This document shows positions 45,104 through 61,475 of a DNA stretch of 64,000 bases, in pieces (the stretch's first letter is position 1; each line of letters begins with the position of its first letter). A program made the translations under genes and the position numbers. Under the pieces are notes generated by a model. That model saw nothing but the letters and a program-made list of their open reading frames with translations. It was not told the origin of the DNA and made no database searches. The stretch is from Acidobacteriota bacterium (lineage in GTDB: Bacteria > Acidobacteriota > Terriglobia > Acidiferrales > UBA7541), in assembly GCA_003225295.1 (NCBI GenBank), contig QHYZ01000107.1, forward strand, positions 1 to 64,000, written 5' to 3'.

Positions 45104-45886
45104 ATGCCGCGCGGCTCAGTGACCTTGCGCCTCATCACGCTGTCGGTGGCTGTCGTCGCAAACACAGCGGCGCAGCAGGAGCCAAGACCGCCAGACCTTC
45201 CCAATGCGCCAGCAGCAAAACAGGAAAGCACGCACCAGCAGCACCAAAATCCTTTCAACACAACCATCGAAGTTCTCGGACGGCGGTCTATTTTCTTTCC
45301 CGAGATTGCGACCAGCAGGGGTTCGCTGAGCACCACACAGAAGTTTGAACTCTTTGCCGACGAGAGCGTCTCCCCTTCACGTTTTCTCAGTTCTGCCGCC
45401 GGAGCAGGGATCAGTCAGGCGCGGAATTCGCTGAACGGATATGGCCAGGGAATGGGCGGTTACGGAGAGCGTTTCGGTTCTTCGATGGCCACGGCCGCGG
45501 CGAACAATTTTTTCGGAACGTTTCTGATTTCGTCGCTACTGCACCGTGATCCGCGCTACTTCGTAACGCTGCATGGAGGCGCGAGACACCGCATTGGTTA
45601 TGCGCTCAGCCGCATCGTGGTGGCGCGCACGGATGACGGTAAAGATGCGGCCAATTGGGCGGGGATGCTGGGCCCGTTGCTAGCTGAGACTCTGGCAAAC
45701 AGCTATCTGCCGGTGAAAGAACAAACGGCGGGCCGGACCCTGCAACGCTTCGGACTGCGGATCGGCTTGAATACCGCCAGCAACGCGCTCCGGGAATATT
45801 GGCCAACGATCTTTCGCAGTCTGCGTATTACGAAGGTCGCTCCGGGGATCAATTCGAATGCGGGAGGGACTCGGCCGTCGCGCTGA
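45104..45886 (+). CDS. secreted protein of unknown function
   Basis: 260-residue protein with a signal peptide (TLRLITLSVAVVANTAAQ). It has a Pro/Gln-rich linker (PRPPDLPNAPAAKQESTHQQ) and then a helical/amphipathic domain with QKFELFADESVSPSRFLSSA, GYGQGMGGYGERFGSSMATA and LLHRDPRYFVTLHGGARHRI. Proteins of this appearance recur in acidobacterial genomes without a known role. A start at 45,104 is favoured by the signal sequence directly following. It is the last ordinary gene before the tRNA-associated accessory region. Confidence 0.65.
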   Translation: MPRGSVTLRLITLSVAVVANTAAQQEPRPPDLPNAPAAKQESTHQQHQNPFNTTIEVLGRRSIFFPEIATSRGSLSTTQKFELFADESVSPSRFLSSAAGAGISQARNSLNGYGQGMGGYGERFGSSMATAAANNFFGTFLISSLLHRDPRYFVTLHGGARHRIGYALSRIVVARTDDGKDAANWAGMLGPLLAETLANSYLPVKEQTAGRTLQRFGLRIGLNTASNALREYWPTIFRSLRITKVAPGINSNAGGTRPSR

Positions 45887-45929
45887 CAAGCACGTGTGAA
45901 ACGGAAGGGCCTGCTAGTATTACAACGGA

Positions 45930-45969
45930 AGGGCGGGTCTGTCGCGCAGAAGGATAGAGCAGCACTTTC
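45930..45969 (+). pseudogene. truncated tRNA-Arg(CCU), 5' half (scar A)
   Basis: The sequence GCGCAGAAGGATAGAGCA followed by GCACTTTCCTAAA matches the D-arm through anticodon loop of tRNA-Arg(CCU). It stops being tRNA-like exactly after TTTCCTAAA, where GTGC and a T-arm would be expected; TCTGACC follows instead. The same break point occurs in the scar at 48,817. Confidence 0.6.
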
Positions 45970-46100
45970 CTAAATCTGACCATTTTCCTAGCCCGTTTCG
46001 GAAAAACTCGGACTCTGCAATATTCCTCAAGCCATCATAACGTGGTAAGTTCAATGACAGTGTCCGGAACCTGTAGAAAACAGATCACCGAGCCACCGCA

Positions 46101-46655
46101 TCAGAGAAGCTTGGGACTATCATTTGGCAAGAGCATCTGAGCGACTTGCGTCAATTTCCAGCTCGTCGGATGAAGTTGTCGATCAAGTACCCACACCAGG
46201 TCAAATCTCGAGTCGGGCCATTTCTGCGGACTGGATCGGTCGTTGCCCAGGATAACGTTGGCTAGGTCTATGATGGACTTGTGCTCCCAGGCGATAAGCA
46301 CAACGCCATGGGTGGTCATGGCCTCCTCTGCGAGCTTCCTTTCATCTCCCTTGGTGTGCTTTAAGTTGACCTTTAAGCCCAGAGATTCCGCGACCGCCTT
46401 AACCGTGTGATGTGAGCGTTCGCTCTGAATGTGCCCCGAGGGGGCGGCAGCGAAGACAGCGTTGGGCTTTGCCAAGGCTGGATGGATGAATTGTCCGTGC
46501 AGGGGATTAAAGAAACGAATGAGGGCGCCGGAGCGCTGCCAGCCGCTTGTAGATAATTCGTTCTTGTCGTGCTCGCCCTCTGGGTTGACTCCGTGAATGT
46601 CTTCATCTTTCTCTGGCTTTTCGCCATGGCGAACGATCATGATTTTGTCGGCCAT
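46101..46655 (-). CDS. histidine-phosphatase-superfamily protein
   Basis: 184-residue single-domain protein of the phosphoglycerate-mutase-like phosphatase clan. The phosphohistidine motif is IMIVRHGEKPEKDEDIHGVN. The second catalytic His is in VVLIAWEHKSIIDLA, and a basic patch GHIQSERSHHTVKAVAESLG fits the substrate pocket. GGAGAACG precedes the ATG at 46,655; the extension to 46,679 is not used. It lies between two tRNA-Arg remnants and may be cargo of an integrated segment. Substrate unknown. Confidence 0.8.
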   Translation of the reverse strand: MADKIMIVRHGEKPEKDEDIHGVNPEGEHDKNELSTSGWQRSGALIRFFNPLHGQFIHPALAKPNAVFAAAPSGHIQSERSHHTVKAVAESLGLKVNLKHTKGDERKLAEEAMTTHGVVLIAWEHKSIIDLANVILGNDRSSPQKWPDSRFDLVWVLDRQLHPTSWKLTQVAQMLLPNDSPKLL

Positions 46656-46726
46656 CTTCGTTCTCCAGCCGTCATCCATCGCTTCGGATCACGAGGGTGC
46701 AAGTGTTAAGCATGCGCTTCGCGGCT

Positions 46727-47082
46727 CTAGTTGGCCTTGCAGTTTGGCGCGCTCTTGATTTCCCGAATCCGCTTGAGAAAAGTATTCGTCCATTCGTCGA
46801 GGGTCGCCTCTTCAGGGTTTCGTGAGCCGCTATCTCGCAGCCGGCGCAACTGTTTCGGGGTCCATCGTCTGGAACCTGCCTCGGTGAATATGGCTCGCAC
46901 AGTTTGCGGATCCAGCCGCCCGAGTCTGTGGATCATTAGGTCCTGCGCCTCCTTCAGCGCACGCCAGGCAGCTTTTGCTCTTTTTTCATTTGATCGGGAA
47001 CTTGGCAGGTGTTGGTTTGCGCCGCAGCGTCGCTCACAACAGCTAGAGTCAAGAAAGTTAAAATCGCAAAGCGAAATCTCAT
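46727..47082 (-). pseudogene. small secreted protein gene with one-base frameshift
   Basis: From the ATG at 47,082 (GAGGA site) it reads a signal peptide MRFRFAILTFLTLAVVSDAA AQ, then a short mature stretch ending QMKKEQ. The next codons run out of frame. If one A is restored in the A-run near 46,975, the frame continues KAAWRALKEAQDLMIHRLGR and RWTPKQLRRLRDSGSRNPEE to the stop at 46,727, giving about 118 residues. No family recognised. It could be an assembly error rather than a mutation. Confidence 0.5.
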
Positions 47083-47131
47083 AAACATTCCTCGTCGCCG
47101 GTATCTGGATATCGGGCCTGGTCGGAAGACG

Positions 47132-48529
47132 TCAGAAGGGCTGCGCCTGGCAATGATTGGGCACGGTGGCAAGTCCCATGGGGTTGTCGATTGATGCCAG
47201 GTCGGTCGGTTTGCTTTTCCAGCGGCAGCGTCCGCTCGCAAGTTCCTCGCGCTTGGCCCTAAAGGCTTCCACCCACTGCTTCTGAATCGTCGCTTCGTCT
47301 AGTCCTTGCTTAAACGAGCCGTCGCCGTTGTGATATTCCGGCATATCGACGACGTGAGCCGCTTTGAATAGATCCTCGATTTGCGCGTCCGTGAGCTGGC
47401 ACATCAGACCGGCAAGAAAACGGCGTCCTTCCTCGCTGATGGTTGGATCACTCAAGCCATCCTTGGCCGTCAAGCTCTTGCTCAAACGAGCCTGGCACAC
47501 CGGGCAATCGGCGTCGCTCATGCCCGGCTTTCCCGTCTTTTTCCACAGCTCCGCTCCTGACCATTCGTGCAAATTCATCTTTGCGGTGTCATTGCTGGTG
47601 AACAGGCCGCCGCCACCAAATGTGGCACCCACATCCTGGACGATCATTTTCGATTGCTGACACGTGGTTGTGAACGGATGCGTGCTCTGGTCCACCTTTA
47701 CCCCATTGCACACGAGCCGTTGTTGTGGAGGTTTATTATCGCTGTGCTGGATGAATGCCCCCAACAATTTGAGGCCATCTTTCTCAGCGATCGGTCGGCC
47801 GTTGTACTCGTCCAGCTCCTTCCAACTCCATCCCTCCTCGCTCTTCCCTTGTTCGTACATCTTGTGTCCGGGATACTTTCTGACAATGGTTGCGGCATCA
47901 TAATTCCGCGTTTCCTTGGACCCGGAACCAGACTCCGGATCCGACGGACAATTGTTGCACTGCACTCTGACAGGGAACCACGAATCGGCGTAATAACCCA
48001 GTGCCCACATCAAGCGTGTCGAAACGACCTCAGCGTAAATCTCTTTGTCGTTGGCGCCAAACTTCACTTTGACTGGTTCTTCTTCCATCTGCGCGGTCAA
48101 GACCTGGACTTGCCCGTTGGCACTTTCGACCTTAGTGATCTGGCAGGAAAACTTAGGAGTCTTTCCGCCCATTTGTGAGCCTGGTTTGTCGAAGTCGCAG
48201 ATCACTTTGTCGTTCGGATGGAATTGAAATTGTTTCGGGTCCTGCGGTGGCCCTTGCAGAATGTCGGCATCCCCCACCGCCCGGGGCGTGAATAGCAGCG
48301 CAACGCGGAGCGCTTCGATCCTGTCTTTTGGTGTGTAAAACTCTTTCTCCACCTTTTGATCGGAAGACTGCGGCGGGTCCTGGGCGCGGGCGTTGGCAGG
48401 AAACACCACGAGGAGGACCGCTAGGAATAGCAAACCTCCCGTCGACAAGGCTGCCCCTGAAAATGGAGCAAGCGGCGGGCTGAAGCCGTACATTCGTTGG
48501 ACTCCGGCGGGCGACATCCCGGATGGCAT
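47132..48529 (-). CDS. secreted/membrane-anchored protein, unknown function
   Basis: 465-residue exported protein. The ATG at 48,529 has GGAGGTGTCGAG upstream and begins MPSGMSPAGVQRMYGFSPPL, then a hydrophobic segment GGLLFLAVLLVVFPANARAQ serving as signal or anchor. The mature part has several Cys, including VQCNNCPSDPESG and DADCPVCQARLSKSL (CxxC pairs that might bind metal or form disulfides), plus LNLHEW-like and Gly-rich segments. The frame extends to 48,703 but that part is not convincing. Same strand as the two preceding genes, possibly one transcript. No family recognised. Confidence 0.65.
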   Translation of the reverse strand: MPSGMSPAGVQRMYGFSPPLAPFSGAALSTGGLLFLAVLLVVFPANARAQDPPQSSDQKVEKEFYTPKDRIEALRVALLFTPRAVGDADILQGPPQDPKQFQFHPNDKVICDFDKPGSQMGGKTPKFSCQITKVESANGQVQVLTAQMEEEPVKVKFGANDKEIYAEVVSTRLMWALGYYADSWFPVRVQCNNCPSDPESGSGSKETRNYDAATIVRKYPGHKMYEQGKSEEGWSWKELDEYNGRPIAEKDGLKLLGAFIQHSDNKPPQQRLVCNGVKVDQSTHPFTTTCQQSKMIVQDVGATFGGGGLFTSNDTAKMNLHEWSGAELWKKTGKPGMSDADCPVCQARLSKSLTAKDGLSDPTISEEGRRFLAGLMCQLTDAQIEDLFKAAHVVDMPEYHNGDGSFKQGLDEATIQKQWVEAFRAKREELASGRCRWKSKPTDLASIDNPMGLATVPNHCQAQPF

Positions 48530-48751
48530 CTCGACACCTCCGCATTGAATGGTTGAGGATGGGAAACTTGCAGACGTTTTGTTTACCATACGCCCTCTTC
48601 TACGCACAACAAGATCTTCCAAAATTCCTGGTAAGTAGTGCGGCCCTACGACAAATCGTTTCTCCTGGGGATGCCAATCCAAACCTAGCGGGCAGGCTTT
48701 CACCCATTGGCCAGAGGTGGTCCTCCCCCGCCGGCCTTCGGGCTAGTTACG

Positions 48752-48777
48752 TACAGATTTGGGTACAACTGGGTACG
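48752..48777 (+). repeat. TTGGGTACA repeat block 1
   Basis: Contains the 17-mer GTACAGATTTGGGTACA, then ACTGGGTACGG. The same 17-mer recurs in block 2. Such short repeats beside a tRNA resemble integrase arm-binding sites of integrative elements. About 40 bp ahead of the truncated tRNA-Arg at 48,817. Confidence 0.55.
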
Positions 48778-48816
48778 GTTAAGCGCATCGCCTCTGCTGT
48801 AGTAAACTGTCGGTCT

Positions 48817-48856
48817 GGGGCTGTAGCTCAGATGGATAGAGCATTGGTTTCCTAAA
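48817..48856 (+). pseudogene. truncated tRNA-Arg(CCU), 5' half (scar B)
   Basis: GGGGCTGTAGCTCAGATGG, then ATAGAGCATTGG and TTTCCTAAA is a perfect 5' half of tRNA-Arg(CCU): acceptor strand, D-arm, anticodon stem and loop. After TTTCCTAAA the sequence (ATGCCTCTAGTG) does not supply the pairing stem, T-arm or acceptor strand. The tRNA cannot fold and is a remnant. Confidence 0.8.
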
Positions 48857-48942
48857 ATGCCTCTAGTGACTGCCTCCATGTAGAATCAAGGATTTAGCAG
48901 GCGGACAGTAGGCGTAACTCGGCGTTTTTGTACCCCAAAGAG

Positions 48943-48983
48943 CCTGGGTTGGGTACAGATTTGGGTACAGACTTGGGTACAAT
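48943..48983 (+). repeat. TTGGGTACA repeat block 2
   Basis: Three tandem TTGGGTACA units with 1-3 bp spacers, including the 17-mer shared with block 1. It ends 20 bp before the complete tRNA-Arg(CCU). Confidence 0.6.
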
Positions 48984-49002
48984 GCTAGAATCAAATTCGT
49001 TG

Positions 49003-49079
49003 GGGGCGGTAGCTTAAATGGATAAAGCAAGAGTTTCCTAAACTCTAGACTGCGGGTTCGAGTCCCGCCCGTCCCACCA
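49003..49079 (+). tRNA. tRNA-Arg(CCU)
   Basis: Complete 77-nt tRNA. Acceptor GGGGCGG pairs with CCGTCCC (one G-U); the D-arm is GCTTAAATGGATAAAGC; anticodon stem GAGTT with loop TTCCTAA gives anticodon CCU; T-arm GCGGG TTCGAGT CCCGC; discriminator A and encoded CCA. Two truncated relatives lie upstream. It probably marks the element-proximal end of an integration hotspot. Confidence 0.9.
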
Positions 49080-49083
49080 TTCT

Positions 49084-49133
49084 AACCACCGGATTTTTGA
49101 GTCCGGCGCGTCTGCCAGTTCCGCCACTCGGGC
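49084..49133 (-). pseudogene. truncated tRNA-Leu(CAA), 5' half
   Basis: Minus strand: GCCCGAGTGGCGGAACTGGC, AGACGCGCCGGACTCAAAAA, then TCCGGTGG. This gives a Leu-type D-arm and an anticodon stem CCGGA/TCCGG with anticodon CAA. After the anticodon stem the strand runs into the complement of tRNA-Arg, with no long variable arm or Leu T-arm. The tail therefore overlaps tRNA-Arg in antisense and the gene is broken. Confidence 0.7.
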
Positions 49134-49220
49134 ACGGCGACAGGATAGCATCAGCGAAGCCGGTGTTCAGCGTCCGGGAGTTATCAGGCCATTGACTTCT
49201 CCATACCGCAGCCAGGTTCT

Positions 49221-49277: not shown

Positions 49278-49423
49278 ATGCGACTTTCCAAAGTACACGT
49301 CACCAATTTTCGTAGTGTTGAAGACTCCGGCGAATTCGATGTAGGACAAGTGCTCGCTCTTGTCGGCAAGAACGAAGCCGGGAAGACCGCGATCTTGCAG
49401 GCACTAGCTGGCTTGAATCCCCA
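49278..49423 (+). pseudogene. OLD-type ATPase/TOPRIM gene, 5' fragment (cut by IS)
   Basis: First 48 codons plus two bases of a 660-codon gene. They read MRLSKVHVTNFRSVEDSGEF, typical of the OLD/RecF/SMC-like ATPase N-terminus, and include the Walker A motif GKNEAGKT (residues 30-37). The IS21-type element enters after CA of the CAT codon for His49. Reading on into the element adds 25 unrelated residues before a stop at 49,499. The promoter at 49,221 drives this part. Confidence 0.88.
49419..49423 (+). repeat. target-site duplication CCCCA, left copy
   Basis: CCCCA directly before the left TG end of the IS element; identical to 52,753-52,757. Confidence 0.85.
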
Positions 49424-49679
49424 TGTCAGCGATCATCTGAATCTGTATTTTTTTGAAGGCTCGCCGGAAAATATAAACATATCAGCATCTGCGCCGTAGG
49501 CGCGCACCCCTCATCTTCATTCATCTGGTAGTTTGATCACCACTGGTGGGAAGTGGGAACCCGACCGTTAGAGCGGTCGAGTTCCCTGTGTGGCAGACCT
49601 TCATCAGGTAGCCAAACATCAACAGGTGTTCAAGCTGCCATGATCGGTCGTCGTTGTCCAGCCCCACCTTGGGGCGAGG

Positions 49680-50111
49680 ATGGCGGCCCACACCGAAGTT
49701 GTCCTCCGTCAACGAGTTTGCCGTGCCAGCGGCTGTGGCCAGGTCTTCTGGATCTGTCGCCATTGTGACCGGGGACAGCACTACTGCAGCCAGCTCTGTC
49801 GACAGCAAACGCGCCGGCAACAACACCGCCTGGCCAACCGCCGTCACCAGCAGAGCCCGGAAGGGCGCCAGGACCATCGCGATCGCCAGCGCGCGTATCG
49901 GCGGCGCCACTCATCACCTCGCGTGACGGATGTATCTTCCCTGATGCTTTCCTTCGCGGGCAGAATGCCGCTGCAATGTGCGCTTCCGATCCGGAATCTG
50001 CACGCCCAAGGGAACGGCGCCCTGCAGCGGCACCACGGCTTACTTCGCTGTGTCCTCTGCGGCCGCCTCGGACGTTTCGTGGAACCGTTCCCCCGAATCT
50101 TCCGGAGGTGA
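49680..50111 (+). CDS. IS-borne Cys/Arg-rich zinc-ribbon-like protein
   Basis: 143-residue basic protein preceding istA; its stop at 50,109-50,111 is two bases from the istA ATG. The N-terminal part holds clustered cysteines: [17 protein letters not shown] and [17 protein letters not shown], consistent with a zinc-binding DNA-contact module. An Arg/Gln-rich helix follows ([18 protein letters not shown]). Similar ORFs with the RGQ.YCS motif occur beside some IS21-type transposases. The role may be regulation of transposition or DNA binding. Start is uncertain; GGGGCGAGG precedes the ATG at 49,680. Confidence 0.6.
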
Positions 50112-50113
50112 GC

Positions 50114-51613
50114 ATGCTCAGCAGTGAACAGCGCGTACAGATCCGTCACTGGTTCTACGCCGAACATTGGAAAGTTGGCACCATCGCGCAGGAACTCGGG
50201 GTGCACCCAGACACCGTCCGCCATGCGCTGGACACCGAGCAATTCAATCGTGCCAAGGCTCTTCGTCCCTTGGTGACCGACCCCTACGTAGAGTTCCTCC
50301 GGCAGACCTTACAGAAGTATCCCCGGCTGCGTGCCACGCGCATCTACCAGATGATCCGGGAGCGCGGTTATACCGGAAGTGTTGTGCAGTTGCGACGCGT
50401 GGTAGCTCGCTTGCGACCGGTTCACCAGGAGCCCTTTTTGCGACTCCGCTCGTTTCCGGGCGAGCAGGGACAAGTGGACTGGGCCCATTTCGGCGAAGTC
50501 TCCGTCGGCCGCGCCCGTCGGCGTCTGTCCTGCTTTCTGATCACGCTTTCCTACTCGCGCGCCCTGTATCTGGAATTCTTCTTCGATCAAAGCATGGAAA
50601 ACTTTCTGCGTGGTCATGTCCATGCGTTTCACGCTTGGTCAGGACAACCGCGAATCCTTTTGTACGATAACCTTCGCAGTGCCGTGCTGGAACGTCGCGG
50701 CGACCAGATTCACTTTCATCCGCGACTGTTGGACTTGTGCTCGCATTATCATTTCGCTCCTCGTCCCTGCCAGGTACGGGCAGCCAATCAAAAAGGAAAA
50801 GTGGAACGAGCGGTTCTCTATGTACGCGAATCATTCTGGGCCGGCCGAACTTTCACCACGCTCGAAGAGCTGAATCGTCAAGCCTTTCTCTGGCGTGACC
50901 AAGTGGCTCATCAACGTCCTTGGCCGGATGATGATTCCAGAACCGTGGAGCAAGTCTTCACCGAAGAACAACCACGACTGCTTCCTTTACCGACACACCC
51001 GTTCGAGACGGATCTGGTTCTCCCGATCCACGCGGGTAAGACGATTTACCTTCGTTTCGACCTGAACGACTACTCCATCCCGCCGGAGGCCATAAGACGT
51101 CCGCTGACCCTGGTGGCCTCAGACGCGAGGGTACGGATCCTGGACGGTAGTGAGGAGATCGCCCAGCATCGCCGCTCCTATGATCGACACCAGTTAGTGC
51201 TTGATCCAGATCACCAGCAAGCCCTGCTGGAGGAAAAGCGCAAGGCCTTTGGATCGACTCCAGGCGGTCGCTTGTCGCAAGCGGTGCCGGAAAGCGAGGC
51301 TCTGCTCGATGCCGCTTTCGCACGTGGAGAATCGGCGGGCAGCCAAACCGCACAGCTCCTCAAGCTCTTGGATACTTACGGGGCCGCCGAGCTGCGTACG
51401 GCCATCCGGGAAGCAGTCGAGCGCAACACACCACGTGCTTCTTCGGTGGCGTTCATCCTGAGCCGACGGCAGCGCTCTCAGCAACACTCCGCTCCCACCC
51501 CTGTGGATCTCAGTCGCCACCCAGAACTGCAATCTCTCGATGTCATCCCTCACGATCTGGAGTCCTACGATGAGCTCACCGACAAGCACCATGAGCCCGA
51601 TGCCGATGAATGA
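50114..51613 (+). CDS. istA: IS21-family transposase IstA
   Basis: 499-residue DDE transposase. An N-terminal helix-turn-helix ([20 protein letters not shown]) and a second DNA-binding helix set precede the RNase-H-like core with catalytic Asp122 ([10 protein letters not shown]), Asp185 ([10 protein letters not shown]) and Glu231 ([17 protein letters not shown]). The C-terminal part has the Mu-type beta-barrel element [27 protein letters not shown] precedes the ATG. It overlaps istB by 8 bp. IstA cuts and joins the element ends as a complex with IstB. Confidence 0.95.
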
Positions 51614-52358
51614 CCTGCTAGCGCAGCTCAAGCACATCGGTCTGAAGACCATCCCCGCGAACCTGGACGACTTTCTCGCCCGGGCCACCAAAGCGCGTTG
51701 GTCTCCCCGCATGCTGCTGGAGCAACTCGCCCAGGAGGAAACCCAAGAGCGTTCCCGCCGTAGTCTGGAGCGACGGCTACGGCTGTCGGCCATCAAGAAA
51801 TTCAAGCCCATGGCCGATTTTGAATGGGATTGGCCCACCAAGGTCGAACGCGAGGTCATCGAACGGGCCCTCACCCTCGACTTCATTCACGAAGCACGCA
51901 ACTTCGTGCTGGTAGGCCAGAACGGTTTGGGCAAAACGATGATCGTCCAAAATATCTGCCACCTCGCTGTGTTAGCGGGCTGCTCGGTTCTGTTTCGCAC
52001 CGCTGCCGCCATCGTGGAAGATCTGCGCCATGAAATGTTCGAGGGTCGCCGACGCAAGCTGCGTGGCTACAGCAGAGCGGATCTCTTATGTATCGACGAA
52101 CTGGCCTACTTGTCTTTCGACGATAAAGCTGCGGACATCCTCTATGAAGTCATCAATCGCCGTTACGAACGCAGGTCCGTGATCGTGACCACCAACCGAG
52201 CATTTAAAGAATGGAACCAAGTCTTTCCCAACGCTACCTGCATCGCCACGCTGCTGGACCGTCTGTTGCATCACGCCGATGTGACCCGCCTGGAAGGCGA
52301 CAGTTACCGAATTCGCGAAAGCCAGCGGGAGGCCGCCACACGGAGGAAGAAACCATGA
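51606..52358 (+). CDS. istB: IS21-family helper ATPase IstB
   Basis: 250-residue AAA+ ATPase of the DnaC/IstB type that remodels target DNA for IstA. Walker A is GQNGLGKT (residues 104-111); Walker B is in [19 protein letters not shown]; sensor I is in [20 protein letters not shown]. The N-terminal helical domain begins [20 protein letters not shown]. It overlaps istA by 8 bp and the following small ORF by 4 bp (ATGA), so all are translationally coupled. Confidence 0.95.
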
Positions 52359-52750
52359 ATCGCTTCGATGATGACGCCGAACAGTACGTGCGCACCGTCC
52401 TAAATCTCTACCAACAGCTCCCGGAAACGCCCGCATTGCCGAGTTCCCGAGACCGCTTCCATGCCCATCAACTGCAACAACGCGGACTCCCTCTGTTGCT
52501 GATCGAGACGGCTTTCCTGTTGGGTTCTTTGCGGCGACTCCTGCGACCACCAGAAGCCGCAGCCTTATCCCCAATTCATTCCCTAGCCTACTTCGGGCCG
52601 GTTATCGACGAAGTCCTCCACAATCCCGTCCCCGACACTTACATCGAATATCTTCGGCGCAAAATGCAGCCCTTCGCCGGGAAAAAAGTTACCGGGCAAG
52701 AATCCTGTCCGGCGAGCCTTCAAAAAAATACAGATTCAGATGATCGCTGA
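52355..52750 (+). CDS. third accessory ORF of the IS21-type element
   Basis: 131-residue helical protein beginning [20 protein letters not shown], coupled to istB by an ATGA overlap. It ends inside the right inverted repeat, so its last residues (SCPASLQKNTDSDDR) are encoded by repeat sequence. It contains an SRDRFHAHQLQQRGLPLLL segment and LLRPPEAAALSPIHSLAYFG. I know no biochemical role; such ORFs accompany some IS21 relatives and may assist or regulate transposition. Confidence 0.65.
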   Translation: MNRFDDDAEQYVRTVLNLYQQLPETPALPSSRDRFHAHQLQQRGLPLLLIETAFLLGSLRRLLRPPEAAALSPIHSLAYFGPVIDEVLHNPVPDTYIEYLRRKMQPFAGKKVTGQESCPASLQKNTDSDDR

Positions 52751-52752
52751 CA

Positions 52753-52757
52753 CCCCA
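52753..52757 (+). repeat. target-site duplication CCCCA, right copy
   Basis: Directly after the CA right end of the element; matches 49,419-49,423. Confidence 0.85.
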
Positions 52758-54594
52758 TCCATTGACGCCAGTTAGCTACGACGTTGAGCGAGATTATCCC
52801 CGGCGTTTCTTGACGGAATATACCGAACGGCACCCGAAGGAAAATGCCAAAGTCGTTTCCACCAAGTGGACGATGACTGACGAAGAAAAGAAGAAAATTC
52901 AAGACGAGATCGGTGATGCCCTCCAGGACAAGCCTGTCGTCATCTCCTGTGGATATAAGGACACTGAGCCTACCTGGGAATTGCCGATAGATTACGCAAA
53001 GGCCGCTCAAAATCTCATTGCCACAGAGAAATTGAATAAAGAAGAGAAGGCTTCGCTCGCGGATGTGGAAACCACTTCAAAGTTGCGCGAGAGTCTTGAA
53101 AAGATCAAAGAGCCAAGATCCAGACAGAAGAGGCTGCTGGAACGGTTGACTGCTTACCCGGAGAAATGCTTCAAAGGATTTGCCGAAGCGATCTTGAAAC
53201 CGGGGTTCCCGCGCTTCATGTACTCGTCCCATTACGACCGGATGGTTGGAGAAATTCGACTAGACACATTCGAAGCCAGGAAGGCGAAGCAGCATCCAGT
53301 TTTTACACAGTGGGGTGAGATCAAGCCTGGTGAGCAAGTCTTTGTTGATTTTCTGGAATACGCCGGAACCTCGCTTAAGGAAATCGCGACCGCCAACACC
53401 TACGAAAGCCTGAACGCCAGGTGTGAAGCTGCGTCAAGCCATATCACGGCGCAACTGCTGGAATATTGGACGCAAAACCCAAACATTGAATTCGAAGTGC
53501 GTGTAACCAAGGCGGAAGCTGGCGACCCGGCCCCGTTCAACGAGGGCATCATTGCCAGAGCACGTGTGAAGAACAATCTTCACAAGCTTTCGCTGCCATT
53601 CTCCGAACGAAGTGCTGGCTTCGTCTGGTTCTTCTCTTTTCTCGTCAAGTTCGCCCAGGTTCAGAAGACCGCTGGCAACTTGATTCTGTTGCTTGACGAG
53701 CCTGGTCTGACACTTCACGGAAAAGCGCAGGGAGACTTGCTTAGGTATTTCGATGAAAAGCTGGCTCCGCGCCATCAAGTGATTTATACAACTCACTCGC
53801 CGTTCATGGTCCCGGCAGACAACTTGCCAGCCGTTCGCATAGTTGAGGATAGAATCTTCCAGCCCAGGCCCGGCCAGTGGACTTCAGAAGGGACGAAAGT
53901 CCGCGATGACACTCTTGCTACTGACCGCGACACATTGTTCCCGCTGCAAGGCGCTCTCGGCTACGAGATCACGCAGACGTTGTTCGTTGGAAAGCACACT
54001 CTGCTGATTGAAGGACCTGGAGACATTCTGTTCCTGGAATCGTTGTCGTCAGCATTGGTCCGTCGTGGCAAGACTGGCCTTAATCGACGTTGGACCATGT
54101 GTCCGGCTGGCGGGATAGATAAGATTCAGCCGTTCGTGGCATTGTTCTCCGGGCAAAAGTTGGATATCGCCACATTGAGCGATTACGCCAAACCGGACAA
54201 AAAGAAGTTCGAATCGTTGCGGCAGAACAAGGTGCTGGAGAGCGAGCGCCTGTTGAACTTCGCAACAATTCTTGGACTGCAAGAGGCAGACATTGAAGAT
54301 ATATTCAGCCCGGCGCTCTACGCCGAAGTTATCAACGAAGCGTTCGATCTCCCCGCCGCTAATCGAGCAACCGCACAATTGTTGCTGGACGCAGACCAGA
54401 ACACGACCAGGCTTGTAAAGAAAGCGGAGGCGTTCTTCGCCGTGCTTCCACCTGGCGCACCTGAGTTTAATCATTTCGCTCCGGCGGGCTGGCTGTTTTT
54501 CAATCCAGGTGTGCTGGACCAAAAGACGCCAGAAGTGAATGAGACCTTGGACCGGGCTGAGAAAGTGATCGCTGCGCTGAACAAGCTTTTGTAG
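52758..54594 (+). pseudogene. OLD-type ATPase/TOPRIM gene, 3' fragment
   Basis: Continues codon 49 of the interrupted gene to the stop, giving 660 residues in total when rejoined. It carries Walker B LLLDEPGLTL (Asp362, Glu363 in whole-protein numbering), the HSP switch TTHSPFMVP and a C-terminal TOPRIM domain with Glu467 and Asp471 in LLIEGPGDILFLESL, followed by CPAGGIDKIQPFVALFSGQK. This is the OLD/GajA-like nuclease architecture, in which a nucleotide-sensing ATPase controls DNA cutting. An internal TTG at 52,762 could start a piece without Walker A. A DUF4062-like gene follows after 25 bp. Confidence 0.85.
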
Positions 54595-54619
54595 ACGGCG
54601 TTAGGGCAGGCTGCGAAGC

Positions 54620-55630
54620 ATGGCTAGGGCTGGAATAGTGTTGAGTGTCCTTATCTCCTCTCCTTCGGATGTTGCTCCACTGTGCGCGACTATCATCAGT
54701 GCCATTCGGGACTGGAATAGCTCTCATTCGCGAGACGTGGGCATCATGCTAGAAGCGGTTCAATGGCAGACACATGCCTATCCGGAATCCGGAGACAGGC
54801 CGCAGGCTCTCATCAATAAGCAGATTGTCGATGAGTCAGACATGGTCATCGCGGTGTTCGGTCATCGCATTGGTACTGCCACTGGTGCCGCACAGTCAGG
54901 AACAACAGAGGAAATTGAGCGTCTACGGGCCAAAGGAAAGCACGTGGCCGTTTACTTTTCAGATGCGCCGATACCACGCGACCACAACCCTGAACAGCTT
55001 CGCCTGCTGAACGAATATCGCAAGTCTCTGACGTCAAACACCCTTTATTGGTCCTTCGAGACTCCGGAAGATTTGTATCGGCACGTCTCGCAACATCTTG
55101 CGAAGAGCGTGCCCCGCGTCTACCAGGAACTGCTGGCGTCCGGTACGATTCACCTTTTGGCGACCCAACTTCCAGGTGCCGTGGGCGGATTGGAGTTGAC
55201 AACGCAGCCCGTCGAGGCCACAAACCAGTCTTCGCGGAGCGAGCCTTTCAAAATGCAGCATGTGTTCGTTGGACAGTTTCCGGATGGTCCCAAACTGCGA
55301 TTGACCGCGACTAGGCAATTTACAGTCACACAGATGGATTACCTTGACGAAAATGGTGCCAGGGTCGCCTCGGACAATCTATCCAAGTCGAACGTTTCGC
55401 GGATGGTAAGCGGAAAAGGTCAGATGCTTGAGGTGCCCGTAGACCACGCGAAACTGATTCAAATTCATAATTTGAAGCCGCGCACGGGGACATCCTCGAT
55501 TCCCATGCAGTTTAGGCTTCAACTTGAGTTAGGTGGTAGTAAGGAAACCCGCACAATTCCGGCACTCCTCAACCCAGGATTCAAGAACATCAACAATACA
55601 ACGACCTACTTCATGGACGTTATTGGATAA
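54620..55630 (+). CDS. DUF4062/TIR-like effector-type protein
   Basis: 336-residue cytosolic protein. The N-terminal domain (about 1-150) opens IVLSVLISSPSDVAPLCATI and contains GDRPQALINKQIVDESDMVI, AVFGHRIGTATGAAQSGTTE and EIERLRAKGKHVAVYF. This is the Rossmann-like pattern of the DUF4062/TIR-related group, which often occurs in defence operons and may hydrolyse or sense nucleotides. The C-terminal part (about 200-336) is beta-rich (VFVGQFPDGPKLRLTATRQF) and unassigned. It lies 25 bp after the OLD-type gene, so probably one operon. The IS insertion upstream may be polar on it. Confidence 0.72.
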   Translation: MARAGIVLSVLISSPSDVAPLCATIISAIRDWNSSHSRDVGIMLEAVQWQTHAYPESGDRPQALINKQIVDESDMVIAVFGHRIGTATGAAQSGTTEEIERLRAKGKHVAVYFSDAPIPRDHNPEQLRLLNEYRKSLTSNTLYWSFETPEDLYRHVSQHLAKSVPRVYQELLASGTIHLLATQLPGAVGGLELTTQPVEATNQSSRSEPFKMQHVFVGQFPDGPKLRLTATRQFTVTQMDYLDENGARVASDNLSKSNVSRMVSGKGQMLEVPVDHAKLIQIHNLKPRTGTSSIPMQFRLQLELGGSKETRTIPALLNPGFKNINNTTTYFMDVIG

Positions 55631-55632
55631 AA

Positions 55633-55818
55633 ATGTCTGCATTTGATAGCGTCGTCAAATTGGCAAAGCAGTGCGAGCCTCATGCGTTGCCGCCCGAGTT
55701 GAAGTATCGGGACTCGCTAATTGCGCACCTGCGGGTTGGTCCGACGCTAAATCGGCTTAGGCAAAGTTTGTGTTATCTTGTCGTGTCATGGACAGACGTT
55801 CATTCTGCCATTCGATGA
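55633..55818 (+). CDS. MSAF-type micro-protein, copy 1 (possibly truncated)
   Basis: 61-residue frame starting two bases after the DUF4062 stop. The first 30 residues, MSAFDSVVKLAKQCEPHALP and PELKYRDSL, resemble the minus-strand copy at 58,265-58,458. After about residue 46 the sequence (LCYLVVSWTD) belongs to the upstream flank of the next gene, so the C-terminus is probably lost. No family recognised. The tight spacing suggests it belonged to the OLD/DUF4062 operon. Confidence 0.5.
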   Translation: MSAFDSVVKLAKQCEPHALPPELKYRDSLIAHLRVGPTLNRLRQSLCYLVVSWTDVHSAIR

Positions 55819-56121
55819 TCGGCGGAGTTGCCACCGCTGCCGCTGTGCGCACTTTGGCCGTTTCGGGTATACAGTTTTCCGAGTGAGTTGCAATTTTTAT
55901 CCATTGACGAGTTAAAGAGAATCTACATTGAACGAGCAATGAACAGTCTGCTCGCTGAAGCGCGTGAGAATATATGGATTCCCAGCTGGTCGGTACCAAC
56001 TCTGCAACGGTTCTCAACTGATAGGGCGTTCGAGCGGCTGGAGCTTCAAGTCCCCGGACAAATGCCGAATCGGGGCCCTGGGAATGCTAAAAGTCTTCAT
56101 GGATTTATCGAACAAAAATAA
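55788..56121 (+). pseudogene. Tat-signal small protein gene with one-base frameshift
   Basis: From the ATG at 55,788: MDRRSFCHSMIGGVATAAAV RT, a twin-arginine-type signal. An extra T in ACTTTGG (near 55,850) then shifts the frame to a stop at 55,878. With that T removed it reads on as WPFRVYSFPSELQFLSIDEL and KRIYIERAMNSLLAEARENI to 56,121. A TATCTT box lies 14 bp before the ATG and no ribosome site is visible. Phage- or element-associated acidobacterial ORFs with this opening exist to my recollection, but I cannot assign a function. Confidence 0.5.
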
Positions 56122-56200
56122 GTAAACTATTTTTCCCGCTGCTCTACCTGCACGATTCCACGATGCAGGAGTTCTCAATGCCGAGCTACGATTCGTTCAT
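56081..56200 (+). repeat. duplicated segment, copy 1 (pairs with about 59,760-59,872)
   Basis: Shares, with substitutions and small gaps, the pattern GTCTTCATGGAT.TAT...AACAAAA.TAAG.AAAC, then CTACCTGC..GATTC, AGGAGTTC and GCCAAGCTA-like GCCGAGCTACGATTCGT, with the second copy. It covers the end of the Tat gene and the start of the next small gene. Confidence 0.5.
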
Positions 56201-56375
56201 GTGTCCGAATTGCGAACATCATTTCCGCGTCATCTGGCCCGACCCATTGCCAAGCCACTACGACGTTTGCAGCAAAATCAAAATAAAGTGCCCTGACTGT
56301 CGGGACGTGATTCGTCGGCCAATACGTGGCTCTGGGTCGCGTGCGCACATGATTTTGTCGATAAGAAAATCGTAG
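56178..56375 (+). CDS. small zinc-ribbon protein
   Basis: 65-residue protein beginning MPSYDSFMCPNCEHHFRVIW, with a second pair CPDCRDVIRRPIRGSGSRAH. Two CxxC knuckles about 30 residues apart suggest a zinc ribbon. AGGAG lies 6 bp before the ATG at 56,178; an upstream ATG at 56,163 is less well placed. A diverged start of a similar gene (PSYDSW) is seen at 59,857 after a duplicated 5' flank. Unknown function. Confidence 0.6.
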   Translation: MPSYDSFMCPNCEHHFRVIWPDPLPSHYDVCSKIKIKCPDCRDVIRRPIRGSGSRAHMILSIRKS

Positions 56376-56482
56376 CTTGATGTAGCGGGCCTCGCCTGCG
56401 CCTATCGTGAAGATCGCCGTCGGCAACAACCTTTCATTCCGTCCTTGCCAAGTTGCTCTCAGACTCTCAGAGAGATCAACAG

Positions 56483-57214
56483 CTATTTAGGCGGTGGCGG
56501 CCATGGCTCGGCATCCGGTCGACTCCACCGCGCCTCGAACAAATCACTGAAGAATCTGATTAAAATCCTGCCGCGCTCCGTTGTTGATGTGACCATGATC
56601 ATCGGATTCCTGCGGCCGGCGATTTTGGGCGGCTCTCCAGCGTACGTGTACCATCCGACGAAAAGGTACTCCATCTGTGACTCGCGGGGAGTCAGCAGCA
56701 CGCCTCTAACAGTCGCTGCGTCTCGTCCAAACTTACCTTCGAGATAATCAACAAAAGTTTTATCTTTTAAGTGATAGATGAGTTCGATGCTCTCCCGTGC
56801 GCGTTGGCCGTCGCGAATGTCAACGGCTGTGTCCGGATGCTGGCAAAGTACTTTGACCTTTATTCCTGCTTGGCAAAACTCCTGGATTGGTGTCTTCAGG
56901 CTTGACATGCCGGCCCCAAGGATGCGCACGTGATCAATGTGCTCTGTCTGAATTAGTCTTGCGATCTCTGCCTGAAACTCTCTATCGTTCAGGACTAGGC
57001 CGATCTGGAGAGGTTTGCGACGGAGAATCCAAAGGATTTCTAGAAGCAAGGCGAGGACGAGGACTTCAAAAACTGGGCGCCGAGTGAAGAACCGGAAGAT
57101 ATCGTCAGAGAAAAACGCGATGACTAATAGCACCTCAGCGAGGATTGCCGCGGCAAACGTCGTGAACTCCGCGACGCTCATGTCAGGTGGGAATTTCAAC
57201 GTCTGTTTAGGCAT
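56483..57214 (-). CDS. two-TM protein with C-terminal soluble domain, coupled to PfkB-like kinase
   Basis: 243-residue inner-membrane protein. Helix 1 is about residues 17-36 (FTTFAAAILAEVLLVIAFF) and helix 2 about 46-64 (PVFEVLVLALLLEILWIL). The cytosolic part has IGLVLNDREFQAEIARLIQT, VRILGAGMSSLKTPIQEFCQ and GIKVKVLCQHPDTAVDIRDG. This Rossmann or PLD-like beta-alpha arrangement is sometimes found in membrane-anchored phospholipase-D-like sensors; no HxK motif is seen, so catalysis is doubtful. It follows the PfkB-like gene by 7 bp on the same strand. Membrane-plus-enzyme pairs of this kind resemble effector/modifier pairs. That is inference only. Confidence 0.6.
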   Translation of the reverse strand: MPKQTLKFPPDMSVAEFTTFAAAILAEVLLVIAFFSDDIFRFFTRRPVFEVLVLALLLEILWILRRKPLQIGLVLNDREFQAEIARLIQTEHIDHVRILGAGMSSLKTPIQEFCQAGIKVKVLCQHPDTAVDIRDGQRARESIELIYHLKDKTFVDYLEGKFGRDAATVRGVLLTPRESQMEYLFVGWYTYAGEPPKIAGRRNPMIMVTSTTERGRILIRFFSDLFEARWSRPDAEPWPPPPK

Positions 57215-57221
57215 CAGACCC

Positions 57222-58217
57222 TCATTCAGTAAGTGAGCCCGGATGGATCTGGATCTGCTCCATCAGTTCATAGACGCGCTTTGGACTGAAACACCCAGGA
57301 AGTCGCGTTTCCGCGTTTGCAGCGCCAACTGCAACAAAGAGCCGCAGAGCGTTCTCTCGTGACTGATTTCCCTGGAGAGCCCAGAGAAAGGCACCCAACG
57401 CAGCGTCGCCGCTACCGAACTGGTTTCTAAGGCGCACACGCGGTGGAGTGACGGTGATAGGGGAACCGTGCCAGACGATGAAGGTGGGGGCGTCATCTGC
57501 AGAACAAATGACGATTTGCGTACCATAGTCAGTCAACGATCGGAGATATCTTAAAATGGCGCACTCGTCATGGGCGTCGACTGAAGCAGGGAGGTGCTCG
57601 GAATTCGTCTTGATAATTCGAGCCCCAGCCCGGACACAAGGCTCGAATGCGTTGCCGCGGGTGTCAACGGCAACGATTCGCCCAGCGGATTGCAGCGCTG
57701 CCACCAAGGACGCATACGAATCCGCTGGAACGTCGGGTGGAAGGCTCCCGCCGAGGAGGACGTAACAAGAATCGGCGCTGCAATCCGAAACCGCCCGGTG
57801 GAACGACTGAATGTCTTGAACAGACATTGCTCGGGACGGCTCAACTACCACCGTTGTGCCCGTGCTGTCTTGCGTGAGTAAAGTGATCACGTTGCGTGTC
57901 TCAGCCTGTACTTGGACCACATTAGTCATGAATGGTTCGTCTGCGAGCAGACGACGAAGGCCCAAACCCGTGTGGCCACCTGCAGTGGTAACTAAATTCA
58001 CCGTCGCCCCGAGCTGGCAGGCCGCCCGAGCAGCGGTGATGGAACAACCGCTTGCTATATCTTGGATGGCGATCGCTCGGTTGACTTTCCCCTGAGTGAG
58101 ATTCGTAAGCTCGAAAACCCGCTCGTAGACCGGCGCGATCATCGCGAAGACCAAAAGCGAGGAGCCGTGCGCGGGGGCTCGGCCACCAACGGACTTCTCT
58201 TCTGCGTGTACACCCAT
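57222..58217 (-). CDS. PfkB-family (1-phosphofructokinase-like) kinase
   Basis: 331-residue ribokinase-fold kinase of the LacC/FruK type. Seen: TLQGKVNRA-like LTQGKVNRAIAIQDIASGCS, a SITAARAACQLGATVNLVTT opening of the Gly-rich region, LLGGSLPPDVPADSYASLVA, VDTRGNAFEPCVRAGARIIK with TNSEHL (normally KPNxxE) and the catalytic QFGSGDAALGAFLWALQG (GxGD class Asp). The N-terminal about 20 residues (MGVHAEEKSVGGRAPAHG) are not family-like, so the true start could be at VFAMIAP. Substrate may be a sugar phosphate or nucleoside. Partner: the two-TM gene, 7 bp downstream. Confidence 0.8.
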   Translation of the reverse strand: MGVHAEEKSVGGRAPAHGSSLLVFAMIAPVYERVFELTNLTQGKVNRAIAIQDIASGCSITAARAACQLGATVNLVTTAGGHTGLGLRRLLADEPFMTNVVQVQAETRNVITLLTQDSTGTTVVVEPSRAMSVQDIQSFHRAVSDCSADSCYVLLGGSLPPDVPADSYASLVAALQSAGRIVAVDTRGNAFEPCVRAGARIIKTNSEHLPASVDAHDECAILRYLRSLTDYGTQIVICSADDAPTFIVWHGSPITVTPPRVRLRNQFGSGDAALGAFLWALQGNQSRENALRLFVAVGAANAETRLPGCFSPKRVYELMEQIQIHPGSLTE

Positions 58218-58264
58218 ATGGCTGGAAAACAGCTAATCAAAGCCTTATGCTCTCTGGTGGACCG

Positions 58265-58458
58265 TTAAGAGTTCGCGGCTTTTCCGATACCACCTTTCAC
58301 CACGACTCTCACCGGCTCGCCACAAACATAATAGCCCTCATCTTCGGAGGCCGTTCTCACAATAATCAAGTCAGCGAGTCTCGATACACCAACTCGGTCG
58401 GCAACAGTCGCGGTGGCCATTCCCTAACCAGCTTATGGACATCCTCGAACGCCGACAT
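58265..58458 (-). pseudogene. MSAF-type micro-protein, copy 2, frameshifted
   Basis: The minus-strand ATG at 58,458 reads MSAFEDVHKLVREWPPRLLP TELVYRDSLT then TGA. With one base added the frame continues DLIIVRTASEDEGYYVCGEP and VRVVVKGGIGKAANS to a stop at 58,265, giving about 65 residues. The first part matches copy 1 at 55,633 in spacing and key residues (MSAF, KL, LP.EL.YRDSL). It lies about 47 bp upstream of the PfkB-like gene on the same strand. Confidence 0.5.
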
Positions 58459-58469
58459 GATTGCTGAAT

Positions 58470-58743
58470 TTAACTCAGCCTCCCTGAGGCTCTAGTGTTT
58501 CCCTTCTTCTTCTCTGCTCTAGACTTTGCCCATCGCGCTTTTGTCGCCTTCGAAATCCTCGCTCTCGCTCTCGCAGCCGCAGACATTTTCCTTTTCTTCT
58601 TGCCAATCCGTTTACCGCCGCTGGCTACTTCGCGGCCTAGAGCCTTCATTGCTCCACGCACCGCGTCCAACTGTTTCCGCGCTCTATCCGCCTGCTTCTT
58701 TAGCTTCGCTTCTGCCTGTGTCAATGCCCGCCAAGATGTTCAT
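58470..58743 (-). pseudogene. basic histone-H1-like small protein, frameshifted start
   Basis: The open frame MTQAEAKLKKQADRARKQLD continues with GGKRIGKKKRKMSAAARARA and RISKATKARWAKSRAEKKKG. It is Lys/Arg/Ala-rich, as in small DNA-binding proteins. The ATG at 58,743 reads MNILAG and is out of frame by one G; the partial copy at 60,131-60,199 has the unshifted MNILAALTQEEAKLKKQA. A downstream start at 58,724 could still give an 84-residue product, so function may persist. Confidence 0.55.
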
Positions 58744-58986
58744 GAATCCTCCGGGCGGCTAATCTACCACGGACGGACTTGCTGGGGTGGGAGTAAGGTC
58801 GCCTTGCCTTGGGAACACACGACAATCTGCGTCGCTTCTCCCGCCTTGAAACCAAGCCGTTTAGGCTCTCCGGACGCCCCGCTAGGGTATCTACCGTGTT
58901 CGATTTCCGGGATTCGCCTTCTTGTTAATTGGACGCTCAGGATTATTCTCTTTGAAAAGGCCCTCCTGAAGCTGAAAGGAAACACC

Positions 58987-59295
58987 ATGAATAGGCAAAA
59001 GGCTTTCTCTCTCGTTCAACTGCTAATCGAAGTGGTAATCACTTTGTTCATCGCCGGGATCGTAGTTCCTAGCCTCCTCCGGTCCGATTTGGCCACGAAA
59101 GGGGCTTTTTTGGCTGCGGGTTCTCTCCGCACAATCAAGATCGCTGGGATTGCATTCTCGTACACGCACCCAAACGTTGCATTTGCCATCTTGGGCGCTT
59201 TCGTGGGTGCGATGGCGGCATTTGCTATCGATTTTCTCGCCAGTACGCCCAAAAACACAACCTCTACGCGAACAACTACTCTGCGGGCCGCGTAA
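58987..59295 (+). CDS. prepilin-like protein with altered cleavage region
   Basis: 102-residue protein with a type IV prepilin N-terminus: MNRQKAFSLVQLLIEVVITL, FIAGIVVPSLLRSDLATKGA and SLRTI. The usual GFSLIELL is here AFSLVQLL, so Gly at -1 is Ala and Glu at +5 is Gln; both residues normally matter for processing and assembly. The C-terminal half has a second hydrophobic helix (VAFAILGAFVGAMAAFAIDF) instead of the usual globular domain. AAGGAAA precedes the ATG at 58,987, within a longer frame from 58,495 that is not otherwise supported. Confidence 0.6.
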   Translation: MNRQKAFSLVQLLIEVVITLFIAGIVVPSLLRSDLATKGAFLAAGSLRTIKIAGIAFSYTHPNVAFAILGAFVGAMAAFAIDFLASTPKNTTSTRTTTLRAA

Positions 59296-59328
59296 ACTCT
59301 TCTGGGATTTGTGGAGCGAGAAGAGATT

Positions 59329-59667
59329 CTAGCGACCGGCCATTTTCTGGGCCATGTGCATCACGAGCTTGCGGTCACTCTCGGCAGCCTTGCCCAAATG
59401 TCTGCGGAGTTTGCTCAAATACCGCGCATCCTTGCCTGAGTTACCCCATACGTTTTGGTCAGATGATTTGCGCTTGAGCAGATTCGGTACTTGAGGCGGC
59501 TCTTCGCCATCGTAGAAAAGTTGATAGAGTGGGCATTCGAGAGCGCGGCCCAGCTTTTCCAACGTTTCGATGGCCGGGACAGTATGACCATTCTCGACGC
59601 GTTTGTTCCAAAAGCTCGGATACATGCATGGTATGTGGATGCTCGTCAGTCGCGAAGGTACCCGCAT
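59329..59667 (-). pseudogene. XRE-type regulator, C-terminal part (copy 1)
   Basis: The frame holds RVENGHTVPAIETLEKLGRA LECPLYQLFYDGEEP, the second half of an XRE helix-turn-helix domain, followed by a specific C-terminal tail KSSDQNVWGNSGKDARYLSK. The first half of the HTH domain is missing: upstream residues (MRVPSRLTSIHIPCMYPSF) are not family-like. The tail recurs at 60,892. It is probably a truncated regulator that can no longer bind DNA. Confidence 0.65.
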
Positions 59668-59759
59668 TTTGGTCCGGTATGAATCATGGCTTCGACCCGA
59701 CTCCTACATCGAAGGGCACATGGAGGTCGTAGGTGCCGGGTACTGAAAAAGACATGCGC

Positions 59760-59872
59760 AGCCCCGCCAAGGTGAAACTCTTTATGGATATTTAGGATAA
59801 GCAAACGTAAACTGCTTCTCCTACCTGCGATTCATTCCACTCAAGGAGTTCCCCAATTGCCAAGCTATGATT
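59760..59872 (+). repeat. duplicated segment, copy 2 (pairs with 56,081-56,200)
   Basis: Diverged copy ending AAGGAGTTCCCC AATTGCCAAGCTATGATTCGT. A TTG start at 59,857 with AGGAG upstream would give PSYDSWKLNDRKLLTTL and a stop at 59,982, similar to copy 1 only for its first few residues. Confidence 0.45.
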
Positions 59873-59899
59873 CGTGGAAACTGAACGACCGAAAATTGC

Positions 59900-60106
59900 T
59901 TACCACTTTAGTCCGATCAATATCTGACAGGACATACAGAGGTAGTAGATTGTGGGCGGTCTGGGAATGCGGAAGGCTTTAACCTTGGAGGTCCCATTAC
60001 AGCGGTCGCATTTCACACCTGCCACACAAGAAACGAAAAATGTGGCACCCGCCAACTTTAGTTTCCAGTCTTCAATCTCCATGCTTGATTCTACCGCTTG
60101 ACTCAA
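59900..60106 (-). CDS. small CxxC zinc-ribbon-like ORF
   Basis: 68-residue minus-strand frame. Likely start is M9 (MEIEDWKLKLAGATFFVSCV). Two CxxC pairs, VKCDRCNGTSK and LCMSCQILIG, fit a zinc ribbon. It overlaps a weak plus-strand frame from 59,857. No family or partner is apparent; it could be real or fortuitous. Confidence 0.4.
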   Translation of the reverse strand: MSQAVESSMEIEDWKLKLAGATFFVSCVAGVKCDRCNGTSKVKAFRIPRPPTIYYLCMSCQILIGLKW

Positions 60107-60130
60107 AGCGATGTATGAGGAATTGCTCGC

Positions 60131-60199
60131 TTAAAGGACCGATTCGGCCTGCTTCTTTAGCTTCGCTTCTTCCTGTGTCAATGCCGCCAAGATATTCAT
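60131..60199 (-). pseudogene. partial copy of the basic protein gene
   Basis: ATG at 60,199 reads MNILAALTQEEAKLKKQAES VL, stop. It matches the first 19 residues expected for the gene at 58,470-58,743, then diverges and ends. A 5' fragment created by duplication or deletion. Confidence 0.55.
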
Positions 60200-60270
60200 G
60201 AATCCTCCGAGCCGATATCCTCTCACGTCCAGGGCAGCGTGTTAAGCTCTTGCCGAGGAGGACGGTGGTG

Positions 60271-60753: not shown

Positions 60754-60891
60754 ACGCTCTACTCAAGGGCTTCGGGTGATTTCGATTCTCCGTCGCAGGC
60801 CGTCGTTCTTGCTATAATCCAGGCACTTTCCCACGACCCAACCTCCGTCAGTACCACAAAATGATAATAGCCGGGGCCTCTGGAAGTCCCG

Positions 60892-61224: not shown

Positions 61225-61475
61225 ACGCTCGCCAAAATCATGGTTTCTTATTTCGAGCTAAGCTCCCCCTTAGCCGCACCACCCGTACCATTTCATTTAT
61301 CATCCTCTTCGGGCAATGTTCCAAAGTACCATTGACACGTTCTTACTTCCTGCTATATCAATCGCTCGCCCAACTCTCCTGCCAATCAGCCCGGCGGGCA
61401 TTTAGACAAATGAACGTCGCTCACGGCGCGCCGTCTTCTCCCAAACGGTCCCGTGGACTACGCCTCGGAGGCTCT

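Follow-up and report, generated by a model that had tools for sequence, protein, structure and literature searches.

Genomic islands are known to cross over in the anticodon loop and to use a single tRNA gene in tandem (PMC4383910); in them, a fragment carried at attP restores the tRNA. In the tRNA-dependent lysogeny described for actinobacteriophages by Guerrero-Bustamante and Hatfull (mBio 2024; PMC10865867), a tyrosine integrase uses an attB site located in a host tRNA gene and a core of about 10 bp, so that the host tRNA is not rebuilt; it is left broken, and the tRNA borne by the element is relied on. In Sinorhizobium meliloti prophages (PMC11476347, PMC12429752), a host tRNA gene is substituted by one that resembles the genes of unrelated taxa. 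Here we describe a 64,000-nt stretch of an Acidobacteriota genome (the window; positions 1 to 64,000 of contig QHYZ01000107.1, assembly GCA_003225295.1), in which tyrosine-integrase elements have very probably integrated repeatedly at a tRNA-Arg(CCU) gene serving as attachment site, with replacement of the entire tRNA. Related genomes, compared as draft assemblies, are designated by G-numbers (G000 being the window's own genome), loci by L-numbers and contigs by C-numbers.

A repeat search of the window identified a 40-nt unit present in exactly three copies, at 45935-45974 (A), 48817-48856 (B) and 49003-49042 (C). An earlier reading made without database searches (the sequence-only reading) had placed tRNA-like sites at 45,935, 48,817 and 49,003, with only the last complete; all three positions were correct. 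The single complete tRNA detected in the window by ARAGORN and Rfam is a tRNA-Arg(CCU) at 49003-49079 (69 bits), the sole intact gene of this type in the whole genome. Copies A and B end at the anticodon loop, as had been noted, and share the same last base, just after TTTCCTAAA, which corresponds to the loop plus one base on each side. Within the 64 kb, TTTCCTAAA is confined to A, B and C (mean of 0.23 in shuffled sequences), as is the 23-nt motif GGATARAGCANNNNTTTCCTAAA (0 in 100 shuffles), and no further copy of a pattern near-identical to GGATARAGCANNNNTTTCCTAAA was found across the 8.1-Mb genome. With a profile built from the intact tRNA-Arg(CCU) genes of relatives, the 5' halves of A, B and C score 26.2, 51.3 and 40.6 bits, respectively; these scores are above chance and argue against the fortuitous similarity that covariance scores might have revealed. 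Intact tRNAs in L070 (G014) and L073 (G017) have a 5' half identical to scar B. Hereafter, A5 and B5 denote the 5' halves of scars A and B, A3 and B3 their 3' halves, and R5 and R3 the two halves of a resident split tRNA. The features of the locus are collected in the table.

Features of the tRNA-Arg(CCU) locus (coordinates in the window)
Feature	Coordinates	Strand	Remarks
260-aa gene, ancestral left flank	45104..45886	+	precedes intact tRNA-Arg(CCU) in relatives
Ancestral tRNA promoter GTATTACAACGGAAGGGC	45917..45934	+	identical upstream of intact tRNA-Arg(CCU) in relatives
Scar A, ancestral chromosomal tRNA-Arg(CCU), 5' half, decayed	45935..45974	+	last 9 bases, TTTCCTAAA, are the crossover core
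Insert behind scar A, taken as left part of element 1	45975..48745		genes 46101-46679 (-) and 47132-48703 (-)
Arm-type repeats GTACAGAT / TTGGGTACAACT / GGGTACGG, upstream of B	48746..48778	+	from repeat analysis
Scar B, B-type tRNA-Arg(CCU), 5' half, well preserved	48817..48856	+	taken as the tRNA of element 1, split by element 2
Putative left end of element 2, 146-bp gap	48857..49002	+	GGGTAC repeats, then tRNA promoter region
C, complete tRNA-Arg(CCU), putatively carried by element 2	49003..49079	+	stems 12/12 paired
Antisense 5' fragment of tRNA-Leu	49077..49138	-	directly behind the CCA of C; CAA-like anticodon with an extra A
Putative cargo of element 2, to contig end at 75284	49278..64000		OLD-like ATPase gene, DUF4062 protein, PfkB kinase, pieces of an XRE-type regulator

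Scar A is the old chromosomal tRNA-Arg(CCU), cut open. Of 89 genomes from the same family, 73 contain the 5' pattern of this tRNA. The gene upstream of A, whose protein has no Pfam match, is found at the equivalent position in L102, L108, L107 and L103 (68-79% blastn identity), and the promoter GTATTACAACGGAAGGGC also precedes the intact tRNA in L059, L060, L064, L065, L067 and others. Same-genus relatives (G001, G002, G008, G019, G020 and others) carry the promoter GTATTACAAT directly before an intact tRNA-Arg(CCU), which in most GTATTACAAT-bearing genomes is again preceded by the gene found upstream of A. The homology of relatives to the window ends at 45974, the end of the anticodon-loop core, whereas their tRNA continues into its 3' half; A and its promoter therefore represent the original chromosomal gene, and 45975 the left edge of inserted DNA. 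The sequence-only reading would have been refuted by relatives sharing the same truncated tRNAs with no variable DNA between them; those sharing the flank carry an intact gene. The G+C content goes from about 58-62% before A to mostly 50-57% behind it, up to the window end, with the exception of an IS21 insertion. In empty sites, the tRNA is followed by a predicted pyridine-nucleotide-disulphide oxidoreductase gene, which here is located on another contig (C360, 84% identity); this separation is consistent with a large insert that broke the assembly. No 3' half was found in the last kilobase of C360 before the contig end.

The pairing of the acceptor and anticodon stems, counted out of 12, was used to compare the halves. 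With the 3' half of C, its own 5' half pairs at 12/12, A5 at 8/12 and B5 at 9/12. The intact B-type tRNA of G014, by contrast, has a 3' half with which B5 pairs at 12/12. The main alternative to replacement of the whole tRNA is a series of classical islands, in which the 5' half carried by attP displaces the old one and the tRNA is rebuilt with the resident 3' half. The common orientation of A, B and C would agree with it, and 5' fragments are known for some islands (159/3919 in Islander; PMC4383910). However, a resident half and an element half forming one coherent tRNA are not found in the window: because A5 and B5 mismatch the present 3' half and C is self-coherent, restoration of a half from attP does not fit. 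Classical islands would also imply an element of 186 bp (the distance from B to C), yet a spacing of about 170-190 bp recurs in independent genomes, and they do not account for the resident 3' halves retained at the far end of the inserts described below. We consider this explanation unlikely here, and elements restoring only a 5' half are ruled out as the main mode by the pairing and the retained R3 halves. In G012, G055 and G057, displaced 3' halves identical to the complete tRNA suggest half-restoration, which probably also occurs at tRNA-Arg(CCU) in other genomes.

The complete architecture is present in three relatives. In G023, R5 (249305-249344) and R3, separated by 38.6 kb, together reproduce the exact tRNA of G010 and G020, and the insert between them contains a different complete tRNA-Arg(CCU) together with one further displaced 3' half. 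In G084, R5 and R3 flank 14.7 kb, and a complete tRNA lies within this insert, 138 bp from one of its ends; in G006, they flank 1.4 kb containing a complete tRNA in the opposite orientation. The sequence common to both junctions is short (14 nt in G023, 10 nt in G084 and 7 nt in G006), so that both junctions leave R5 and R3 as halves, and R5 and R3 of a single event pair at 12/12 in all three genomes. Each insert thus contains a complete tRNA of the same isotype, as does the window. A half lying some 170-420 bp from a complete tRNA was also found in G009, G018, G085 and G087. In some genomes, the replacement tRNA adjoins the resident 5' half; in G006, G009, G015, G017, G018 and G035, it is inverted and adjoins a 3' half. 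Both orientations are therefore used, which the near-symmetry of the core TTTCCTAAA would permit. In G018, the module formed by B, the gap and C (87% identical over about 300 bp) is inverted relative to the ancestral flanks, with a resident 3' half adjoining B and the oxidoreductase flank beyond. Empty sites, split tRNAs, and the integrase and arm repeats of a relative (below) strongly support the serial integration by crossover in the anticodon loop that the sequence-only reading had proposed. Its tRNA-targeting elements are retained as well, with one correction: incoming elements replace the whole tRNA and do not restore a half.

Among 120 tRNA-Arg(CCU) 5' patterns in IMG/VR, about ten are halves cut in the loop. 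The stretches fetched for eleven contain no complete tRNA, and these halves therefore do not illustrate the replacement mode. Viral contigs with 5' halves cut at the core are L178, L196, L198, L200, L201, L210, L267, L273 and L278.

An integrase gene at the same tRNA in a relative, one of the two places where the sequence-only reading had suggested looking for it, was found in G023. In this genome, a member of the same genus, the 38.6-kb element encodes an integrase (PF00589, E 1.5e-12) just inside its 5'-half end. It carries GGGTAC/GTACCC repeats at both ends, three of them exactly 12 bp apart at the R3 end. In the window, the gap between B and C contains GGGTAC at 48951, 48963 and 48975, with the same 12-bp spacing, and one inverted copy at 48930. 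This triple is common to the window, G018 and G023, and degenerate in G035. Because of the matching spacing, the window element would have been moved by an integrase of the G023 family. Homologues of this integrase within the bacterial family have a tRNA or a tRNA half in their fetched flanks (about 1.5 kb) in 26 of 29 cases. In a search of a contig collection, the G023 integrase matched only its own record (JABCZG010000002.1, an Acidobacteria metagenome-assembled genome) and, distantly, a Clostridium sequence. The G023 element also encodes a primase and a terminase-like protein, but the proteins tested gave no further phage structural family. It may represent a reduced prophage or a phage satellite. 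In the G084 insert, no integrase match was obtained; its predicted products include a two-component system and a TonB-type outer-membrane protein. The window, G023 and G084 elements share site and mode, and we do not claim that they are of a single kind. The window's own genome has 67 PF00589 matches, with arrays of four to seven tyrosine recombinase genes on the short contigs C298, C262 and C347.

We propose the following mechanism. An element would recombine at a core of 7-14 nt (TTTCCTAAA) in the anticodon loop and split the resident gene so that its two halves, 5' and 3', come to flank the insert, with neither half restored by attP. The element would itself supply a complete tRNA-Arg(CCU) with its own promoter near one end, often beside triple GGGTAC arm-type repeats. 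The next element would have one target left, the intact tRNA of the previous element, and insertions would nest because this is the only remaining intact copy. In the window, the order would run from A (the host gene) to B (the tRNA of element 1, split by element 2) and then to C (the intact tRNA of element 2). The profile scores indicate that A is decayed and B is not, and A is therefore considered the older of the two. B would have been complete on arrival, and A3 and B3 would lie past the contig end or have been lost.

Several observations weigh against this mechanism. Neither A3 nor B3 was found in the assembly, a pattern search revealing no displaced 3' half in the 75-kb contig, and no tyrosine recombinase domain was detected on this contig, including its part just outside the window. 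The inner split tRNA of G023 lacks its 5' half. In G084, mixed pairings are nearly as good as the native ones (11/12), so that at this locus half-restoration is argued against by the retained R3 and not by pairing alone. Finally, B has an end module of its own that follows no tRNA half, which makes the step from A to B less well supported than that from B to C. The same uncertainty applies to the stretch between A and B, regarded in the sequence-only reading as a small cargo segment. This stretch does start exactly at an element boundary and measures 2.84 kb. The data did not establish it as one complete element, since the boundary is exact on the left side only and indistinct on the right, there is no integrase in 45975..48745, and its largest protein (47132-48586) has no homologue in 88 related genomes. 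No Pfam family was found in the proteins encoded at 46101-46679 and 47132-48703. The right ends of the islands lie beyond the contig, and only left junctions are visible in the window.

An assembly artefact, that is a chimeric contig joined at the repeated 9-bp core or at the tRNA, comes to mind with a draft genome of 385 contigs. It is nevertheless very improbable: the module formed by B, the gap and C recurs in the independent genome G018, complete split tRNAs are embedded in contigs that measure 205 kb (G084) and 343 kb (G023), and a 9-bp core is too short for misjoins. Least probable of all is a duplication of the tRNA by ordinary recombination with decay of the spare copies and no integrase, since, common as tandem tRNA copies are in bacteria, A and B stop at the identical anticodon-loop base, the halves differ in sequence and promoter and are not mutual copies, the DNA behind A is lower in G+C and absent from empty sites, and both the empty sites and the split tRNAs contradict it.

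Behind C, the putative cargo of element 2 shares segments with the G018 island (58492-58752 and 60144-60248) and with the G023 element (59329-59601). No phage structural family was found among the window proteins tested. The OLD-like AAA ATPase/TOPRIM gene (49278-54594) is interrupted by an IS21-family istA/istB insertion (49976-52358), and perfect 45-nt inverted copies of target sequence lie at 49424-49468 and 52708-52752. At the end of the window and into L051 (contig positions 63649-67026), a 1125-aa open frame shows YD/RHS-like repeats, as judged by eye. A shorter version of the tRNA-Leu fragment that follows C is found at the equivalent place in G018 (L090 14520-14545).

We also considered other tRNAs of the same genome. 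On C245 (L148, 378-1760), an integrase homologue has a complete tRNA-Arg(CCG) on one side and, on the other, a displaced 3' half of a tRNA-Arg(CCG) that differs in sequence and matches the intact G023 gene at 100% identity. As far as its sequence can tell, this is a second tRNA replacement of the same mode in the window's own genome. For tRNA-Thr(CGT), no complete gene was matched in this genome; only fragments broken in the anticodon stem-loop were found, nine 3' parts and one 5' part (C377:2219-2268; C193:6132-6176, 8791-8840; C152:69-118; C312:26532-26576, 26443-26483; C72:3974-4018; C69:161094-161143, 159223-159265; C216:542-578). Several of the 3' parts are preceded by a common element end. 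Fragments near complete tRNAs were seen for Lys(CTT), Gly(CCC), Arg(ACG) and Pro(CGG) (L003, L010, L011, L016, L132). In a sample that is not unbiased, many split tRNAs have C at anticodon position 34 and codons that another tRNA can read. A tRNA-Arg(UCU) is present in the window's genome; it may read AGG by wobble, and the need for the element-borne tRNA could therefore be weaker here.

The locus shares with tRNA-dependent lysogeny an attB located in a host tRNA gene (here scar A), short cores (7-14 nt) and, inside the element, a complete tRNA of matching isotype. That system was established experimentally for phages of Actinobacteria and for Lys, Ile and Leu tRNAs, whereas the present one concerns Acidobacteria and tRNA-Arg(CCU) and is read from sequence alone. 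It also differs by the mixed content of the elements, their nested serial use of the site, the use of both orientations and the position of the replacement tRNA, which often lies 50-400 bp away from the end of the element. Islander-type islands resemble it in their tRNA site, in the crossover in the anticodon loop, a known subsite, and in the tRNA fragments at island ends (PMC4383910), but here the fragment and the complete tRNA do not match, and the second resident half survives at the opposite end of the insert. The S. meliloti prophages likewise substitute a host tRNA gene; they belong to Alphaproteobacteria, and the passages compared mention no serial nesting (PMC11476347, PMC12429752). 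In the literature compared, we did not find described the serial nested replacement of one tRNA, in Acidobacteria, with the replacement gene beside the attachment end.

Transfer RNA genes are usually viewed as fixed landmarks that islands keep working. Our results would extend tRNA-dependent integration from actinobacteriophages to islands of Acidobacteria, and they suggest that island finders that rely on the restoration of a half tRNA would overlook such islands or place them wrongly. In this genome, mobile islands have opened the tRNA-Arg(CCU) gene in its anticodon loop on at least two occasions, each apparently supplying a complete copy of its own. The tRNA borne by the element is presumably functional, and the only working tRNA-Arg(CCU) of the cell now appears to belong to a mobile element. 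This gene seems to have replaced an element-borne predecessor that had itself replaced the original, forming an ordered series of horizontal tRNA replacements. We suggest, tentatively, that serial whole-tRNA replacement may be a standing process in these Acidobacteria: tRNAs that can be spared (Arg CCU, Arg CCG, Thr CGT and others) would be split, foreign ones supplied and then targeted in turn, and part of the tRNA set would turn over through nested mobile DNA.

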